From Bradymonadales bacterium (lineage in GTDB: Bacteria; Bdellovibrionota; UBA2394): a stretch of 42,721 nt of DNA. Both the position numbers and the translations under genes were made by a program. Below, piece by piece: positions 11,999 through 30,291 of this stretch. Position 1 is the stretch's first letter; each line of letters opens with the position of its first letter. The notes under the pieces are model-generated. The model had not been told where the DNA came from and did no database searches. It saw nothing but the letters and a program-made list of their open reading frames with translations. The stretch lies in contig REDG01000021.1 of the NCBI GenBank assembly GCA_007693605.1, positions 1 to 42,721 of the forward strand, in the 5' to 3' direction.

Positions 11999-14347
11999 CT
12001 AGTTGTTAGGCCCCTGTTCGGGCTCGCCCCCATACTGATCAAAATCTCCACTGTCCGGTGAGTTCTGGGGCACCACGTGAGGGTAGCCCTCAGGATAGAA
12101 GTTCTTGCTTTGCCGCGATCGAGAGTCCTCCCGAAACCAAGCGTCTTGCCATGTCAGCAGTTGAATCTCTGCGTGAGGGCCGACGATTGCCAGCGACTGG
12201 ACCCAACTACTCAGTCCTTCGAGAGCATAAGGAAGTTTTAGCAAAGTAAAGGTCCCCACATTCACGATACGATGATCTCTCTCGACGGTATGGGTGTGAC
12301 CAAAGACCATCGCGTCGACACCTTTTCGAAAGCTTGCAACCGAACCCTTCGCTCCATTCGCGCCCACATGGCCGTGTAAGCCAAGCTCCACCTCTCGACC
12401 GGGCGGTCCCACCTGATAGGTTTCGCCTCGATTCAGAAAGCGCATCTGGGCCTTTGCCTCTTCATTTAGAAACTTATTCAGTCCTGCATGAAGCGGATCG
12501 AGGGCCCCGACTCGATCTTCCGGGGCTCTCTTTTGATCCTTTAGAAAATCCACAAAGACGACCGTCAGCTCCGCTCCAATTCGAATGTTCTGTGGCTCAT
12601 CAATGAAACGACCGTCGTTGAGGTAACGATGCAGCATATTGTCATGATTGGAGTGAACCACCACGATTTCAGCCCCATGAGAAATGCTGGTGAGCCAGTT
12701 CACAAATTCAGCAGCCTCCCTAATCTCATCTTCCAGATTGAATTTTCCTTCTTCAGCCAATACCGCTCGATTCATTTTTCGGTTGGCATCGTGTGGGCTA
12801 ATCGAAAAGGCACTAAAAAGATCGTGCAGCACAATGCGCTTAGGCCGTAGAAGCTTGATCAGTTTGGGCAGGCTCTCCAAGAGCTTCGGATCTGTTTCTC
12901 CGACATGGATATCTCCTAAGACAAGGGCCTCAGCTTGAATCTCATAACTTCCAGTCGCCGTATAGAACCGATTGAGATCTGTGAAGCCTTGAGCCTCAGC
13001 CACATATTCAATATGTCTGGCAAAGAAATGCCCCTGATCTTCGGCCTTGCCGGAAGCCGCTCGTTTGGTATTGGCTTCAATCAAGATGGCGCCAATGACA
13101 TGATCATGGGTGGCAATTTTCGCCACTCGGTCTTGAATCAATTTCTTGCCCGCATATCGCCCCACCGTAATCGAGCCCGTGGTCCAGTTCATATGGGGTC
13201 GTTTATCATTGTGTAGCGTGGGAGTTGTTGTGAGCATCATCTTCGGAGATCCAAAAATTTGAGACTCTCCACGGCGACCCATCCTCTGAAGACCTGTTAA
13301 TGATTTGATCTGTCGATCGATGATCTTCGTGTCGTTTAGGGTGAGATAAGGGGTCAACTTATGGGTATGAGTCACTACATGAACTCTCGGATGATTCAAC
13401 AGAGCGGAATCAAGCCCAGTGGTCACCAAGTTTACGGGGCGCACCAGAATCGGAAGATCTTTCTCTTCTGCCATACGAAGCAAAGCGGCAAAGGCCTCAG
13501 CCACCACCGGCTTTCCTGCTGTGGCAGAAGTCAGAATGGCGCCTCCCTTCTTGACAAGCTCTGCCAGTGCAGCCTCCTCTCTTTCAATTCCAAAGAACTC
13601 CGTGTCGATGACGGACTTAAAGCTGTTGGGGTTTTTCTTGAAGGCCTTTTCTTTTAGATCCGGCCAATCGGTAAAGAGAACCTGAGAGGCCAGAAGCTCA
13701 TGAAAATCCCCCATTGAAATGCCGAGCACTTCGGCCGTCTCTTGAGCGGTCGGCGTCCGCCCGGTCTCTCTGGCAATCCTCGTGTAGGCCGTCAGAACTT
13801 TGTTCCCAATCACCTCAAGATCACGGGCTCTATCCGAAGCCAAAATCTCCCAAAGGGAGTGGCCTGAAAACAGAGCAGTCTGAAGAAATTCTAGGCCTTC
13901 TCCGACGAGCGCCAGTTGCTCTTCCTCTGTGGGCTCTCGCAGCTCTTGCTTCATGAACTTCGCAAGCTCCCCGATGATTCTCTTCTCCAAAGATCCTAAA
14001 ATCTCAGGAAAGGATTCATAGCCAGAAAGAAAAAGCTCTTCGAGATTCTTCGGAGTCGTCTTGCTTGAAAAATATCGCTTGAGGGCGGCCTGCGACACCC
14101 CATTGTGTTCTGCAAACTCTTTGAGGCTGGGTAGACGAGAATTCTTTGCTACCCATTTCAGCAAAGCCTCTTCGAGAACTGTCGTTTGATCAAACAGCAG
14201 TTCCCGGCTGACTCCGGCCCTCTCCCCAAGCTCCTCTAGGCCCACGCGGCACTTCGCTTCCAAATGAAGCTCTACAGAAGAAATGAAGAGGCTTCCCAAA
14301 AGAAGCCCAAGCCGAAGCCATTTCAAGCAAACTTTAAATGATCCCAC
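11999..14347 (-). CDS. Exported calcineurin-like metallophosphoesterase, phage T5 A1-like
   Basis: The 782-residue protein starts at a GTG with GGGAGGGG 6 bases upstream. Residues about 10-31 form a signal peptide or membrane anchor (WLRLGLLLGSLFISSVELHL). Residues 35-235 contain two helix-turn-helix-like segments (RLPSLKEFAEHNGVSQAALK and RTPTAQETAEVLGISMGDF). A central region (320-430) carries YLTLNDTKIIDRQIKSL and LQRMGRRGESQIF. The C-terminal phosphoesterase has LGDIHVGETD (Asp479, His481), HDLFSAFSISPHD, VVHSNHDNM, LHGHVGANG and VFGHTHT, i.e. the metal ligands of the calcineurin-like fold. From memory the central-plus-C-terminal part resembles the A1 protein of phage T5, needed for host DNA breakdown during two-step DNA transfer; this is recall, not a search result. 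Pro/Gly-rich tail. Monocistronic. Confidence 0.75.
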   Translation of the reverse strand: MGSFKVCLKWLRLGLLLGSLFISSVELHLEAKCRVGLEELGERAGVSRELLFDQTTVLEEALLKWVAKNSRLPSLKEFAEHNGVSQAALKRYFSSKTTPKNLEELFLSGYESFPEILGSLEKRIIGELAKFMKQELREPTEEEQLALVGEGLEFLQTALFSGHSLWEILASDRARDLEVIGNKVLTAYTRIARETGRTPTAQETAEVLGISMGDFHELLASQVLFTDWPDLKEKAFKKNPNSFKSVIDTEFFGIEREEAALAELVKKGGAILTSATAGKPVVAEAFAALLRMAEEKDLPILVRPVNLVTTGLDSALLNHPRVHVVTHTHKLTPYLTLNDTKIIDRQIKSLTGLQRMGRRGESQIFGSPKMMLTTTPTLHNDKRPHMNWTTGSITVGRYAGKKLIQDRVAKIATHDHVIGAILIEANTKRAASGKAEDQGHFFARHIEYVAEAQGFTDLNRFYTATGSYEIQAEALVLGDIHVGETDPKLLESLPKLIKLLRPKRIVLHDLFSAFSISPHDANRKMNRAVLAEEGKFNLEDEIREAAEFVNWLTSISHGAEIVVVHSNHDNMLHRYLNDGRFIDEPQNIRIGAELTVVFVDFLKDQKRAPEDRVGALDPLHAGLNKFLNEEAKAQMRFLNRGETYQVGPPGREVELGLHGHVGANGAKGSVASFRKGVDAMVFGHTHTVERDHRIVNVGTFTLLKLPYALEGLSSWVQSLAIVGPHAEIQLLTWQDAWFREDSRSRQSKNFYPEGYPHVVPQNSPDSGDFDQYGGEPEQGPNN

Positions 14348-14534
14348 AAGTAGCCCCTCCCGATAGAATACAGAGGAGCTATATTGAGAGGCTCAGAAGT
14401 CCCCCCACAATCACTGTCCCAAAAAAGAAATCTTCGCTCCCCTTGCATTCCGATTCCTGCAAACAGTTCATCGAAGGAGACCGCGGCGTGTCAACGCTTT
14501 GATTCCAAGGCCCGGAAACTTTACCCAAAATAAA

Positions 14535-14567
14535 CAAAGCCCGTAACGCGGTGCGCAACGGGCTTTG
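14535..14567 (-). terminator. Strong intrinsic terminator
   Basis: A perfect 10-bp stem CAAAGCCCGT/ACGGGCTTTG with a 13-base loop. On the minus strand it is followed by TTTATTTTGGG, so it ends transcription of the barrel gene at 14598-15140. On the plus strand it is followed by CTTTCTTTC, so it may work both ways. The rest of 14348-14597 shows a possible minus-strand -35 (TTGACA at 14494-14489) with a poor -10, and nothing else. Confidence 0.85.
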
Positions 14568-14597: not shown

Positions 14598-15140
14598 TTA
14601 GAAATAATAACGAAGTCCAACATCTCCAAACATCGACTGAGTAAAGCCAATCCCCGATTTTTTCACTAAATCAATCGTGATTCCGGCTGAACTTTGAATC
14701 GCAAAATGGTTGTCACGAAACGGAAAGATTTCGAAACCAAAATAAGGCAGCTGCAAAACCACTCCCGTTTCAACATCGCTTCCGCTCTTCAAAAAGAAAC
14801 TCCCTTGAACAAAGAGATTCAGATGCTCCCAAAATCGAGAGTCTCTGACAATCAGTCGGTGAATGTCGTAACGAAAGCTGGGCCCGACAAGAAATTGACG
14901 AAAGTTGCGGGTCATCCCAAAAAAAGCCTCAACCTGCATATCTTTAGCGATTCCGTAAGAAGCGGAAACTCCGTGAATCTGCTGAGCCCCCAACCAGTCA
15001 CCATTACTGGTCACAAAGCCGTTGGTGAAGACCTGCTTGTAGCCGCCACTAATTTTATAAGAAAGGTCTCGCGCATCCAGCTGAACAGCAAAGATTCCGA
15101 GACCAAAAAAAAGGATAAAGAAACGAGAAGATATTTTCAT
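14598..15140 (-). CDS. Outer-membrane beta-barrel protein, 180 residues
   Basis: There is a clear signal peptide (SSRFFILFFGLGIFAVQLDA) and a C-terminus ending VGLRYYF, the aromatic-terminal beta-signal read by the BAM machinery. The body alternates strands rich in Phe/Tyr (VSASYGIAKDMQVEAFFGMT, VGPSFRYDI, NLFVQGSFFLKSG), consistent with an 8-stranded barrel of about 160 mature residues. The ATG has GAATGAGGA directly upstream. It has its own strong terminator (14535-14567) and follows mpl by 33 bases, so it may be read from the mpl operon or singly. Function unknown. Confidence 0.75.
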   Translation of the reverse strand: MKISSRFFILFFGLGIFAVQLDARDLSYKISGGYKQVFTNGFVTSNGDWLGAQQIHGVSASYGIAKDMQVEAFFGMTRNFRQFLVGPSFRYDIHRLIVRDSRFWEHLNLFVQGSFFLKSGSDVETGVVLQLPYFGFEIFPFRDNHFAIQSSAGITIDLVKKSGIGFTQSMFGDVGLRYYF

Positions 15141-27753: not shown

Positions 27754-30291
27754 GTGACGGACACTGCTGTTCCAAAGAGAATTGATCGATATGATTTGGT
27801 CGACCGAATCGGCTCGGGTGGCATGGGGCTCATCTACAAGGGCTTTGACACAAAGCTGAAACGAAATGTTGCCATCAAAATGGTTTCAGATCGAGTCAAA
27901 GATGCGGCCGTTCGACGCAATATTCGAGAACGATTCTTTAACGAAGCACGAGCCGCAGGCGCCCTCTCTCATCCGAATCTGGTTCAAATCTACGACTTTG
28001 GTGAAATCGAAGGCGTTGTTTATATTGTGATGGAGTACATCGAGGGGGAAACGCTTGAGCAGCTTTTAAAGTCCAAAGGCCCCTTGAACATCGACCAGTT
28101 TTTACGGATCTCAAGAGAGGTGGCAAACGGTCTGAGCTTTGCACATAAGCGGGGGATTGTTCACCGAGATATCAAACCTTCGAATATTATGATTGAAGCC
28201 GATTCTGGGGTGGCAAAGATTCTGGACTTTGGAATCGCCAAGTTCGTCGATGAAGAGGAGATGAAGCTCACCTCAACTGGAATGGTTCTAGGAAGTACTC
28301 ATTACCTGTCTCCAGAACATATCACGGGAAAGAATCTGAACAATCGAAGCGATATCTTTTGTCTGGGAACCGTTCTCTACGAAGCAGGCACGGGCACACT
28401 CCCCTTCAGAGGCAGCAACTCGAGCACGATTCTCTATAAGATCGTCAATTTCGACCCGCCCCCAGCACACCACAGTCGCCACGACTTTCCGGAAAAGCTT
28501 TCAGGAGTGATCTCTCAGTGCATGCAGAAAGACCCAGAGGCCCGTTATCAGAAGTGTGAAGACTTGATTGAGGCTCTAAACGGCTTTGAAAAGTCCCTCA
28601 TCACTCCAAGCAAAGAGGCCGCCAAATCAAAAACCTCTGGCGCTCAAATCTACAGCCATTCTTACTTCGTTCGAGACAGTCAGCTGCTCAACGCTCTGGT
28701 GACCGAGGGGCGACTCGATCGAGATCTGGCCATGAAGTACCGAGGAAAATCCCTCTACGAAGCCCTCACGCGAGATGCTGTTTTGCCCGAAGATGATATC
28801 GCCTTTGTTTGCTCAGACCTTCTGAATCTTCCCTGGATTCCTCGAGGTCGCCTGAAATCCCTTCGTATTGATCCAAGTCTGAAAGACCTGATTCCGACTA
28901 AACTATTGAAGAAACACCATTTTGTTCCCTTTTTTAAAGACGATAGCCGTTCGGTCTTGAGTATGATCATTGACGGAGTGAGTGACTTTCAAGCGCTTCC
29001 AGAAGTCGACAAGCTCTCACAACAGTACCAGCTTCAACTCTATGTTGGGGCTAGAAGCGTCATTCACACTCTCATTCGAAATCGATTTGAAAATTTGGAT
29101 TTAGCCACAACCACAGGCACGCATGAAGAGTCTCTAGACTCTAAAGCCTTCGGAGATCGAAGAGTTCTGTTGGTTGAGCCACAGGAACACTTTCAACAGG
29201 CGATTGTGAAACTTTTCAAAGGCTTTGAACCCGCCATCACGATTGTAGACAATTTGAAAGAGGCTCGAGAGCGCGTTGAGTCTGAAAAATTTCATCACAT
29301 CTGGGCCTCTAGACCCGTTATGGGCGACGAATTGGCTTTTGAGTCGATTGTGATTCGAACGAACCCGAGCTGCGATCTTCGATTTTACGATCACCTGGGC
29401 GAAGAGATTCTCGAAGACTCTATTCACTATTCAAAGTTTAGAGATTTCTTTGCCCGAGTCTTGCAAGAGTTTCTCAAGAAAGGCTCGCTCGAAGATCGAA
29501 AAGTCTCTCAAAATTTCGCGTCGCTGGCGGTTAGAATCGCGCGCGTGGAAACTCAAAATCAAAAGGATTTAGACGAGGTCTATTTTTCTGCGCTCTTTTA
29601 CAAATGGGAGAAGCTCTACCCCAATGAAGACAATCTCTCAGAGCTTTTGTTCGGAATTTATAGGTTCCGACACATCCGCGCCTCTGTTGGCGAGAGGTTT
29701 GACGGACGGGGCCCTATGGCTTTGAAGGGACGCTATATTCCACTTGCTAGTCGAGTGATCGCAGCGCTTTCAGTTCTCGATGGCATTAAATCCGACCTGA
29801 AAGATCTAAGCCTTGAAGAGACTCAAAGCCTTCGAGAGAAACTTTCTCGATTTGCTTCAAAGCAGCTTGACCCCGTGATTGCTGCAGCCATTCTCGAAAT
29901 GATTCGACCCGTTGCCGAGAAAAAGGCTTCGAAGAAAGTTGCCATTGTGGACTCTGATCTAGAGTATTCCAGACAGCTGCAAGCCCTACTGAAGGGCATC
30001 TCGGCAGAAGCCACCGTCTATTCTGACGGAGTTTCAGCATTAGAAGCCTTTCAACAAGAGAAGCCCGACCTCATTGTGAGCGAAGTCGTCTTGGCTAAGC
30101 TGGATGGCTTTGCGCTCGCTTCGAGAATTCGAGCGAACGAACTTCTGAAGTCGATTCCCCTGGTTTTTGTTTCCCAATCAGAGCAGCCCGAACACTCCGT
30201 CAAGGCGCTACAACTTGGAGCAAGTGACTTCATTTCGAAGACCTCTGAACCGCAGTTTATAGTCACAAAAATCGAACGCTATCTGAAATAG
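27754..30291 (+). CDS. Ser/Thr kinase with MshEN, receiver-like and HD-GYP-like modules
   Basis: Domains in order: Hanks-type kinase 12-278 (GSGGMGLIYKG loop, Lys42, HRDIKPSN 137-144, DFG 158-160, all catalytic residues intact); MshEN/type II secretion E N-terminal domain about 308-446 (LPEDDIAFVCSDLLNLPWIP, DLIPTKLLKKHHFVPF), a known c-di-GMP-binding fold though its RLG motif is weak; degenerate receiver about 468-560; HD-GYP-like 575-715 (ERFDGRGPMALKGRYIPLA, without catalytic HD); receiver 728-845 in which the phosphoacceptor Asp is Glu777 while Ser and Lys829 remain. GTG start with GGGGGAAAGAG 4 bases upstream. No membrane span. Its 3' end overlaps the convergent FtsB-like gene by 13 bases. 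Confidence 0.9.
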   Translation: MTDTAVPKRIDRYDLVDRIGSGGMGLIYKGFDTKLKRNVAIKMVSDRVKDAAVRRNIRERFFNEARAAGALSHPNLVQIYDFGEIEGVVYIVMEYIEGETLEQLLKSKGPLNIDQFLRISREVANGLSFAHKRGIVHRDIKPSNIMIEADSGVAKILDFGIAKFVDEEEMKLTSTGMVLGSTHYLSPEHITGKNLNNRSDIFCLGTVLYEAGTGTLPFRGSNSSTILYKIVNFDPPPAHHSRHDFPEKLSGVISQCMQKDPEARYQKCEDLIEALNGFEKSLITPSKEAAKSKTSGAQIYSHSYFVRDSQLLNALVTEGRLDRDLAMKYRGKSLYEALTRDAVLPEDDIAFVCSDLLNLPWIPRGRLKSLRIDPSLKDLIPTKLLKKHHFVPFFKDDSRSVLSMIIDGVSDFQALPEVDKLSQQYQLQLYVGARSVIHTLIRNRFENLDLATTTGTHEESLDSKAFGDRRVLLVEPQEHFQQAIVKLFKGFEPAITIVDNLKEARERVESEKFHHIWASRPVMGDELAFESIVIRTNPSCDLRFYDHLGEEILEDSIHYSKFRDFFARVLQEFLKKGSLEDRKVSQNFASLAVRIARVETQNQKDLDEVYFSALFYKWEKLYPNEDNLSELLFGIYRFRHIRASVGERFDGRGPMALKGRYIPLASRVIAALSVLDGIKSDLKDLSLEETQSLREKLSRFASKQLDPVIAAAILEMIRPVAEKKASKKVAIVDSDLEYSRQLQALLKGISAEATVYSDGVSALEAFQQEKPDLIVSEVVLAKLDGFALASRIRANELLKSIPLVFVSQSEQPEHSVKALQLGASDFISKTSEPQFIVTKIERYLK

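Follow-up and report, generated by a model that had tools for sequence, protein, structure and literature searches.

What does a relative of a phage takeover protein do once it sits on a bacterial chromosome behind an export-type N-terminus? The question is raised by a gene at positions 11,999–14,347 of contig REDG01000021.1 from a Bradymonadales bacterium (Bdellovibrionota; assembly GCA_007693605.1), the 42,721 nucleotides of which form the window analysed here. A first-pass annotation had likened the encoded protein to A1 of bacteriophage T5, a takeover protein that is needed for degradation of host DNA (PMC13250531) and binds the RNA polymerase of the host as well (PMC8541194). The open reading frame is genuine: it has a GTG start with GGAGG 8 nucleotides (nt) upstream, and its product matches PHROG 1745 ('DNA transfer protein') with E=4e-75 across profile positions 51–536 of 542, which excludes chance. 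Relatives of the protein are contained in 1103 phage records, many of them annotated A1. The annotation had itself asked whether the resemblance to T5 A1 extends beyond the generic phosphoesterase fold, and it does. When a profile of 26 exported homologues was compared with T5 A1 (record AY543070), hhalign gave E=8.2e-34 over 438 columns. Both domains match: the central domain alone reached E=3.1e-11 against T5 A1 and 3.4e-35 against a profile of viral A1 proteins, while the phosphoesterase domain alone reached E=1.6e-24 against T5 A1.

An AlphaFold model built from a 30-sequence alignment (mean pLDDT 86; the first ∼50 residues are of low confidence) places three helix-turn-helix (HTH)-like repeats at residues 54–238, each a four-helix unit modelled with high confidence, followed by a mixed central domain (254–470), the phosphoesterase (470–735) and a disordered tail. 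A hidden Markov model (HMM) of the third repeat recovers the other two and puts the three at residues 60–105, 119–146 and 177–240. The first-pass annotation was thus right that such segments are present but wrong in counting two. Nor is an N-terminal HTH a bacterial peculiarity, as it had supposed, since weak matches point to short HTHs in homologues of phage type as well, for example the one from Ochrobactrum phage OC. In a domain-wise profile comparison the HTH region had no counterpart in T5 A1. The motif RQIKSLTGLQRMGRRGES, noted earlier, was found in the central domain. The phosphoesterase scores 20.3 bits against PF00149, below the curated Pfam cut-off of 21.5, with all of its motifs there. 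It is complete, as had been claimed, in that the eight metal-binding and catalytic residues D479, H481, D509, N567, H568, H658, H684 and H686 align with D304, H306, D340, N396, H397, H476, H501 and H503 of T5 A1; among 29 sequences seven of these positions show no variation, and 25 of the 29 retain H684. A gene that standard annotation saw just as a weak phosphoesterase now has a testable role. The closest fold match to the model is a 608-residue phage protein in BFVD (E=3e-48, TM 0.74), which from its equal length and best sequence match is probably phiOC_p412 of Ochrobactrum phage vB_OspM_OC (27.8% over 71%, E=8e-47). No close solved structure was found for the A1-like protein.

Unlike T5 A1, which has no signal sequence, is encoded by a phage and acts within the infected host, the window protein is chromosomal and begins with an export-type N-terminus, KVCLKWLRLGLLLGSLFISSVELHLEA/KC. 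Export was called from a simple hydropathy score, the best 9-residue value with a level of 2.0, among homologues with complete 5' ends. By this measure the signal-peptide-like N-terminus of the first-pass annotation was borne out: the window protein scores 2.32, and a signal-like core is present in 26 of 30 homologues of the Bdellovibrionota set, whereas none of 58 viral and none of 36 other-phylum homologues reaches the level. The remaining four of the 30 are phage-type proteins, including one that a Bdellovibrio plasmid encodes. Exported A1 proteins contain 0.21 cysteines per 100 residues compared with 1.1–1.3 in viral and other homologues, a scarcity that fits an oxidizing compartment outside the cytoplasm. 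We therefore predict, from hydropathy and homologues together, that the window protein is Sec-exported.

The survey behind these counts covered 369 Bdellovibrionota genomes. A contig scan of genomes with the single window protein as query gave no match; loci were reached by a DNA pattern around HGHxGxNG...GHTH. An exported homologue was found in 29 of the 369 genomes, scattered over more than 10 family codes of the phylum and mostly absent from complete Bdellovibrio-like and Halobacteriovorax-like genomes. In a tree of 137 sequences, obtained by a quick search with the root not fixed, the 28 exported proteins group into a single clade (SH-aLRT 99). The half of the tree that holds this clade also holds Ochrobactrum phage OC and a set of homologues from DPANN archaea, with T5 A1 lying apart, and a single capture from phage is the simplest reading. 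Signal-less A1-like proteins on Nanoarchaeota and Woesearchaeota contigs (L086, L089, L118, L124, L130, L138) make up a clade of their own. The 161-kb plasmid pBdHM1 of Bdellovibrio sp. HM001, which may be a phage-plasmid, encodes a phage-type A1 without signal (L017:10849-12777).

In relatives, the gene directly upstream of the A1-like gene encodes a second exported protein, of ∼350–460 residues, with a DxDGT-type motif. Of the HAD motifs, DxD, T-x-R and K are found and the fourth (D/E-D/N) is variable; a profile of the partner matches a same-phylum family with four HAD motifs (DxDDN, ITAR, K, SDDD) at E=1.5e-32. From the DxD motif and this match we provisionally assign it to the HAD type. 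Full-length partners occur in 27 of the 369 genomes, all 27 of which also encode an exported A1-like protein; a partner without one was seen in none of the 369. Seen from the other side, 27 of the 29 genomes with an exported A1 have the partner, adjoining wherever the contigs permit a check (Fisher p=6e-39 for co-occurrence, in genomes that are not independent). Where both ends are readable, the distance from the partner's stop to the start of the A1-like gene ranges from −37 to +25 nt and is exactly −4 in ten cases, a spacing typical of coupled translation. The distance matrices of the two proteins correlate with r=0.87. The two exceptions are G003 and the window species, whose own genome, like the window, lacks the partner; no decayed remnant of it was found in the gap upstream of the window gene. 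The phage protein phiOC_p412, which shares a large section of the tree with the window protein but has no signal sequence and a shorter N-terminal HTH part, has no adjacent HAD gene, and the four signal-less homologues of the Bdellovibrionota set lack the partner too. A search of 237 genomes of the phylum of a Myxococcales locus, run without a positive control, did not find the partner. The pair does occur outside the phylum, at L145:1453-3789 in a genome of the phylum group to which L083/G370 belongs; both proteins there are exported and carry the cysteines described below, and the A1 gene is truncated where the L145 stretch stops. In a literature search of partial coverage, we saw neither an exported A1 nor a HAD and A1 pair described before.

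Three further observations concern the partner and its relatives. In G368 the partner is broken into two open reading frames by a stop or frameshift (L048:8052-9197, reverse strand), possibly through decay or an assembly error. In partner-less G003 the A1-like gene is followed by one for a 157-residue exported protein (L009:10185-10658, reverse strand) that by eye recalls nucleoside deoxyribosyltransferases, a likeness that library matches do not support. A ∼300-residue HAD family (DFDDN...ITARGH...SDDD; L074:328-1227, L075:180-1094) with no Pfam family is found in many Bdellovibrionota genomes, complete ones included.

The pairing has a parallel in T5 itself, where a HAD-type nucleotidase, dmp, and A1 are closely encoded in one pre-early block and annotated for deoxynucleotides and host-DNA degradation, respectively (record AY543070). 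T5 Dmp belongs to a PHROG family named polynucleotide kinase. The arrangements differ in that dmp and A1 lie ∼850 nt apart, whereas the bacterial genes adjoin or overlap, and in that both bacterial proteins are exported. A search for direct homology between partner and Dmp turned up nothing beyond the shared DxDGT motif.

Each protein of the pair carries one invariant cysteine. In A1-like proteins it lies soon after the predicted cleavage site (26/26 exported proteins), in partners 5–24 residues from the C-terminus (23/23), and in most proteins of both kinds it is the only mature cysteine. This suggests that the C-terminal tail of the partner may be disulfide-linked to the N-terminal head of the phosphoesterase.

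How might such a protein work? We give about an even chance to the explanation that it is a captured phage takeover phosphoesterase that is now exported and, together with a HAD phosphatase, breaks down nucleic acid outside the cytoplasm. An ancestor would have captured a T5 A1 family member once, added a Sec signal and retained the gene on its chromosome. Outside the cytoplasm the HTH repeats would bind nucleic acid, possibly DNA, and the two-metal phosphoesterase would cut its phosphodiester bonds. In nearly all carriers it would work with the co-encoded phosphatase which, by analogy with T5 A1 and Dmp, would strip phosphate from the products and so feed the uptake of nucleosides and phosphate; Dmp of T5 is a deoxynucleoside monophosphatase. 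The species of the window would have lost the partner, leaving the phosphoesterase to work by itself or alongside an unrelated phosphatase. Nucleic-acid breakdown is favoured because RNA polymerase is an implausible target outside the producer's cytoplasm, and a phosphoesterase combined with DNA-binding-type repeats and a co-exported phosphatase points the same way. The most likely purpose would be to obtain phosphate or nucleosides. More tentatively, and in our judgement somewhat improbable as a whole, the once-captured takeover protein may be disulfide-joined to the HAD phosphatase, probably through the near-C-terminal cysteine of the partner and the mature-N-terminal cysteine of the A1-like protein, the two enzymes forming an extracellular complex that degrades nucleic acid and parallels the A1 and Dmp pair of T5. 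To our knowledge no described secreted-nuclease family is built as a disulfide-joined complex of A1 and HAD proteins.

Several points weigh against this proposal. A1 may act through RNA polymerase binding, and for A1 orthologues of jumbo phages comparative work has led to the prediction of a counter-nucleotide phosphodiesterase role (PMC7824862). Purine auxotrophy of the carriers, the simple prediction for a scavenger, was rejected, the reverse being found: PurH is kept in 28 of 29 carriers compared with 239 of 340 non-carriers (Fisher p=0.001, uncorrected for kinship), which argues against dependence on scavenged purines and, as a driver, against purine need. The export signal rests on a simple hydropathy score. 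The AlphaFold model of the partner is poor (pLDDT 58), making the fold search with it, which returned no match, uninformative; a sequence search of solved structures returned no homologue of either protein. Finally, the partner-less proteins of the window species and G003 still have the conserved cysteine, so that the heterodimer idea is not general and the cysteine may serve otherwise. If breakdown by an exported enzyme is nevertheless correct, the gene would plainly illustrate how a takeover protein of a lytic phage can become an enzyme that bacteria secrete. A partial literature search found no report of a biochemical activity of T5 A1, and an exported, cysteine-poor bacterial A1 with a near-obligate partner is a practical protein for asking whether A1 itself is a nuclease.

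The substrate need not be a polymer. An exported phosphodiesterase acting on small nucleotides, cyclic or oligomeric, or on another extracellular phosphodiester, with the HAD protein removing the leftover phosphate for phosphate or nucleoside uptake, would be a sensible two-step pathway, and it agrees with the diverse substrates of calcineurin-like enzymes, the prediction for jumbo-phage orthologues (PMC7824862) and the lack of purine auxotrophy among carriers. We nonetheless regard it as unlikely, the three HTH-like repeats indicating polymeric nucleic acid and T5 A1 being needed for host DNA degradation (PMC13250531). We are more doubtful still of a predation or antibacterial effector, action on prey having been suggested by the first-pass annotation, that is secreted into prey or neighbours to degrade their DNA or shut down transcription there, in the manner of T5 A1 in Escherichia coli. 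Predators of the phylum do secrete DNases into prey, as part of Bdellovibrio predation, and Bd0934 and Bd3507 of Bdellovibrio are secreted enzymes that degrade DNA outside the producing cell (PMC7925074), and T5 A1 is a takeover protein that binds host RNA polymerase too (PMC8541194). However, the gene is all but missing from Bdellovibrio-like and Halobacteriovorax-like genera, purine synthesis persists in most carriers, nothing about the partner resembles an immunity protein, and no conserved neighbour is a secretion-system gene. Bd0934 and Bd3507 are of a different enzyme family and are not known to have a HAD partner.

Phage origin, patchy spread over more than 10 family codes and placement between outer membrane and cytoplasm would also suit periplasmic defence, in which a phage protein is turned on phages and attacks their DNA during entry. 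Against this stand a stable housekeeping neighbourhood in the gene's own family, with no defence island, and the want of any recurrent adjacent gene besides HAD in other families, and we consider defence very unlikely. Least credible to us is a cytoplasmic protein whose hydrophobic N-terminus merely mimics a signal or results from a wrong start. HTH domains are usual in cytoplasmic proteins and the cleavage site of the window protein is weaker than those of its relatives, but the relatives have textbook AxA sites, the exported proteins are clearly separated from 94 signal-less homologues and depleted in cysteine, and the partner is itself exported.

Features of the A1-like gene and its surroundings in the window
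Feature	Position	Strand	Basis
A1-like phosphoesterase gene, 782 aa, GTG start	11999..14347	(-)	single ORF; PHROG 1745 + hhalign
Ribosome-binding site GGAGG, 8 nt 5' of GTG	14356..14360	(-)	sequence reading
Terminator-like hairpin AAAGCCCG...CGGGCTTT, 3' of gene 14598-15140	14536..14566	(-)	sequence reading
Predicted Sec-type signal sequence, residues 1-31, cleavage about LEA/KC	14255..14347	(-)	hydropathy score + homologues
Cys33, sole cysteine of mature window protein	14249..14251	(-)	equivalent in 26/26 exported homologues
HTH-like repeat 1, residues 60-105	14033..14170	(-)	model + repeat HMM
HTH-like repeat 2, residues 114-172 (repeat HMM core 119-146)	13832..14008	(-)	model + repeat HMM
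HTH-like repeat 3, residues 177-240 (Sigma70_r3 match 181-218)	13628..13819	(-)	model + repeat HMM
Central A1 domain, about residues 255-468	12944..13585	(-)	hhalign + model
Calcineurin-like metallophosphoesterase, about residues 470-738, every metal ligand there	12134..12940	(-)	profile, alignment
Probably disordered C-terminal tail, low-confidence, residues 742-782	12002..12124	(-)	AlphaFold model

The chromosomal location assumed at first reading was confirmed. Within the source genome (2.19 Mb in 79 contigs) the gene lies among housekeeping genes, namely those for a squalene-hopene cyclase, a Mur-ligase-family protein, a muramoyltetrapeptide-carboxypeptidase-like protein and diaminopimelate epimerase, and the order cyclase, A1-like protein, small exported protein, Mur ligase is conserved in four genomes of the family of the window species. 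A prophage origin of the window copy was ruled out, as these neighbours are conserved in the four genomes. The small exported protein (14598-15140, reverse strand) has 180 residues, ends in ...GLRYYF and resembles an outer-membrane barrel by eye; its gene adjoins the A1-like gene in the four family genomes and has no Pfam, NCBIfam or PHROG match. The terminator-like hairpin between the two genes suggests that they are transcribed separately. Elsewhere in the window, positions 27754-30291 (forward strand) encode an 845-residue Ser/Thr kinase that carries a response-regulator receiver domain in its C-terminal part.
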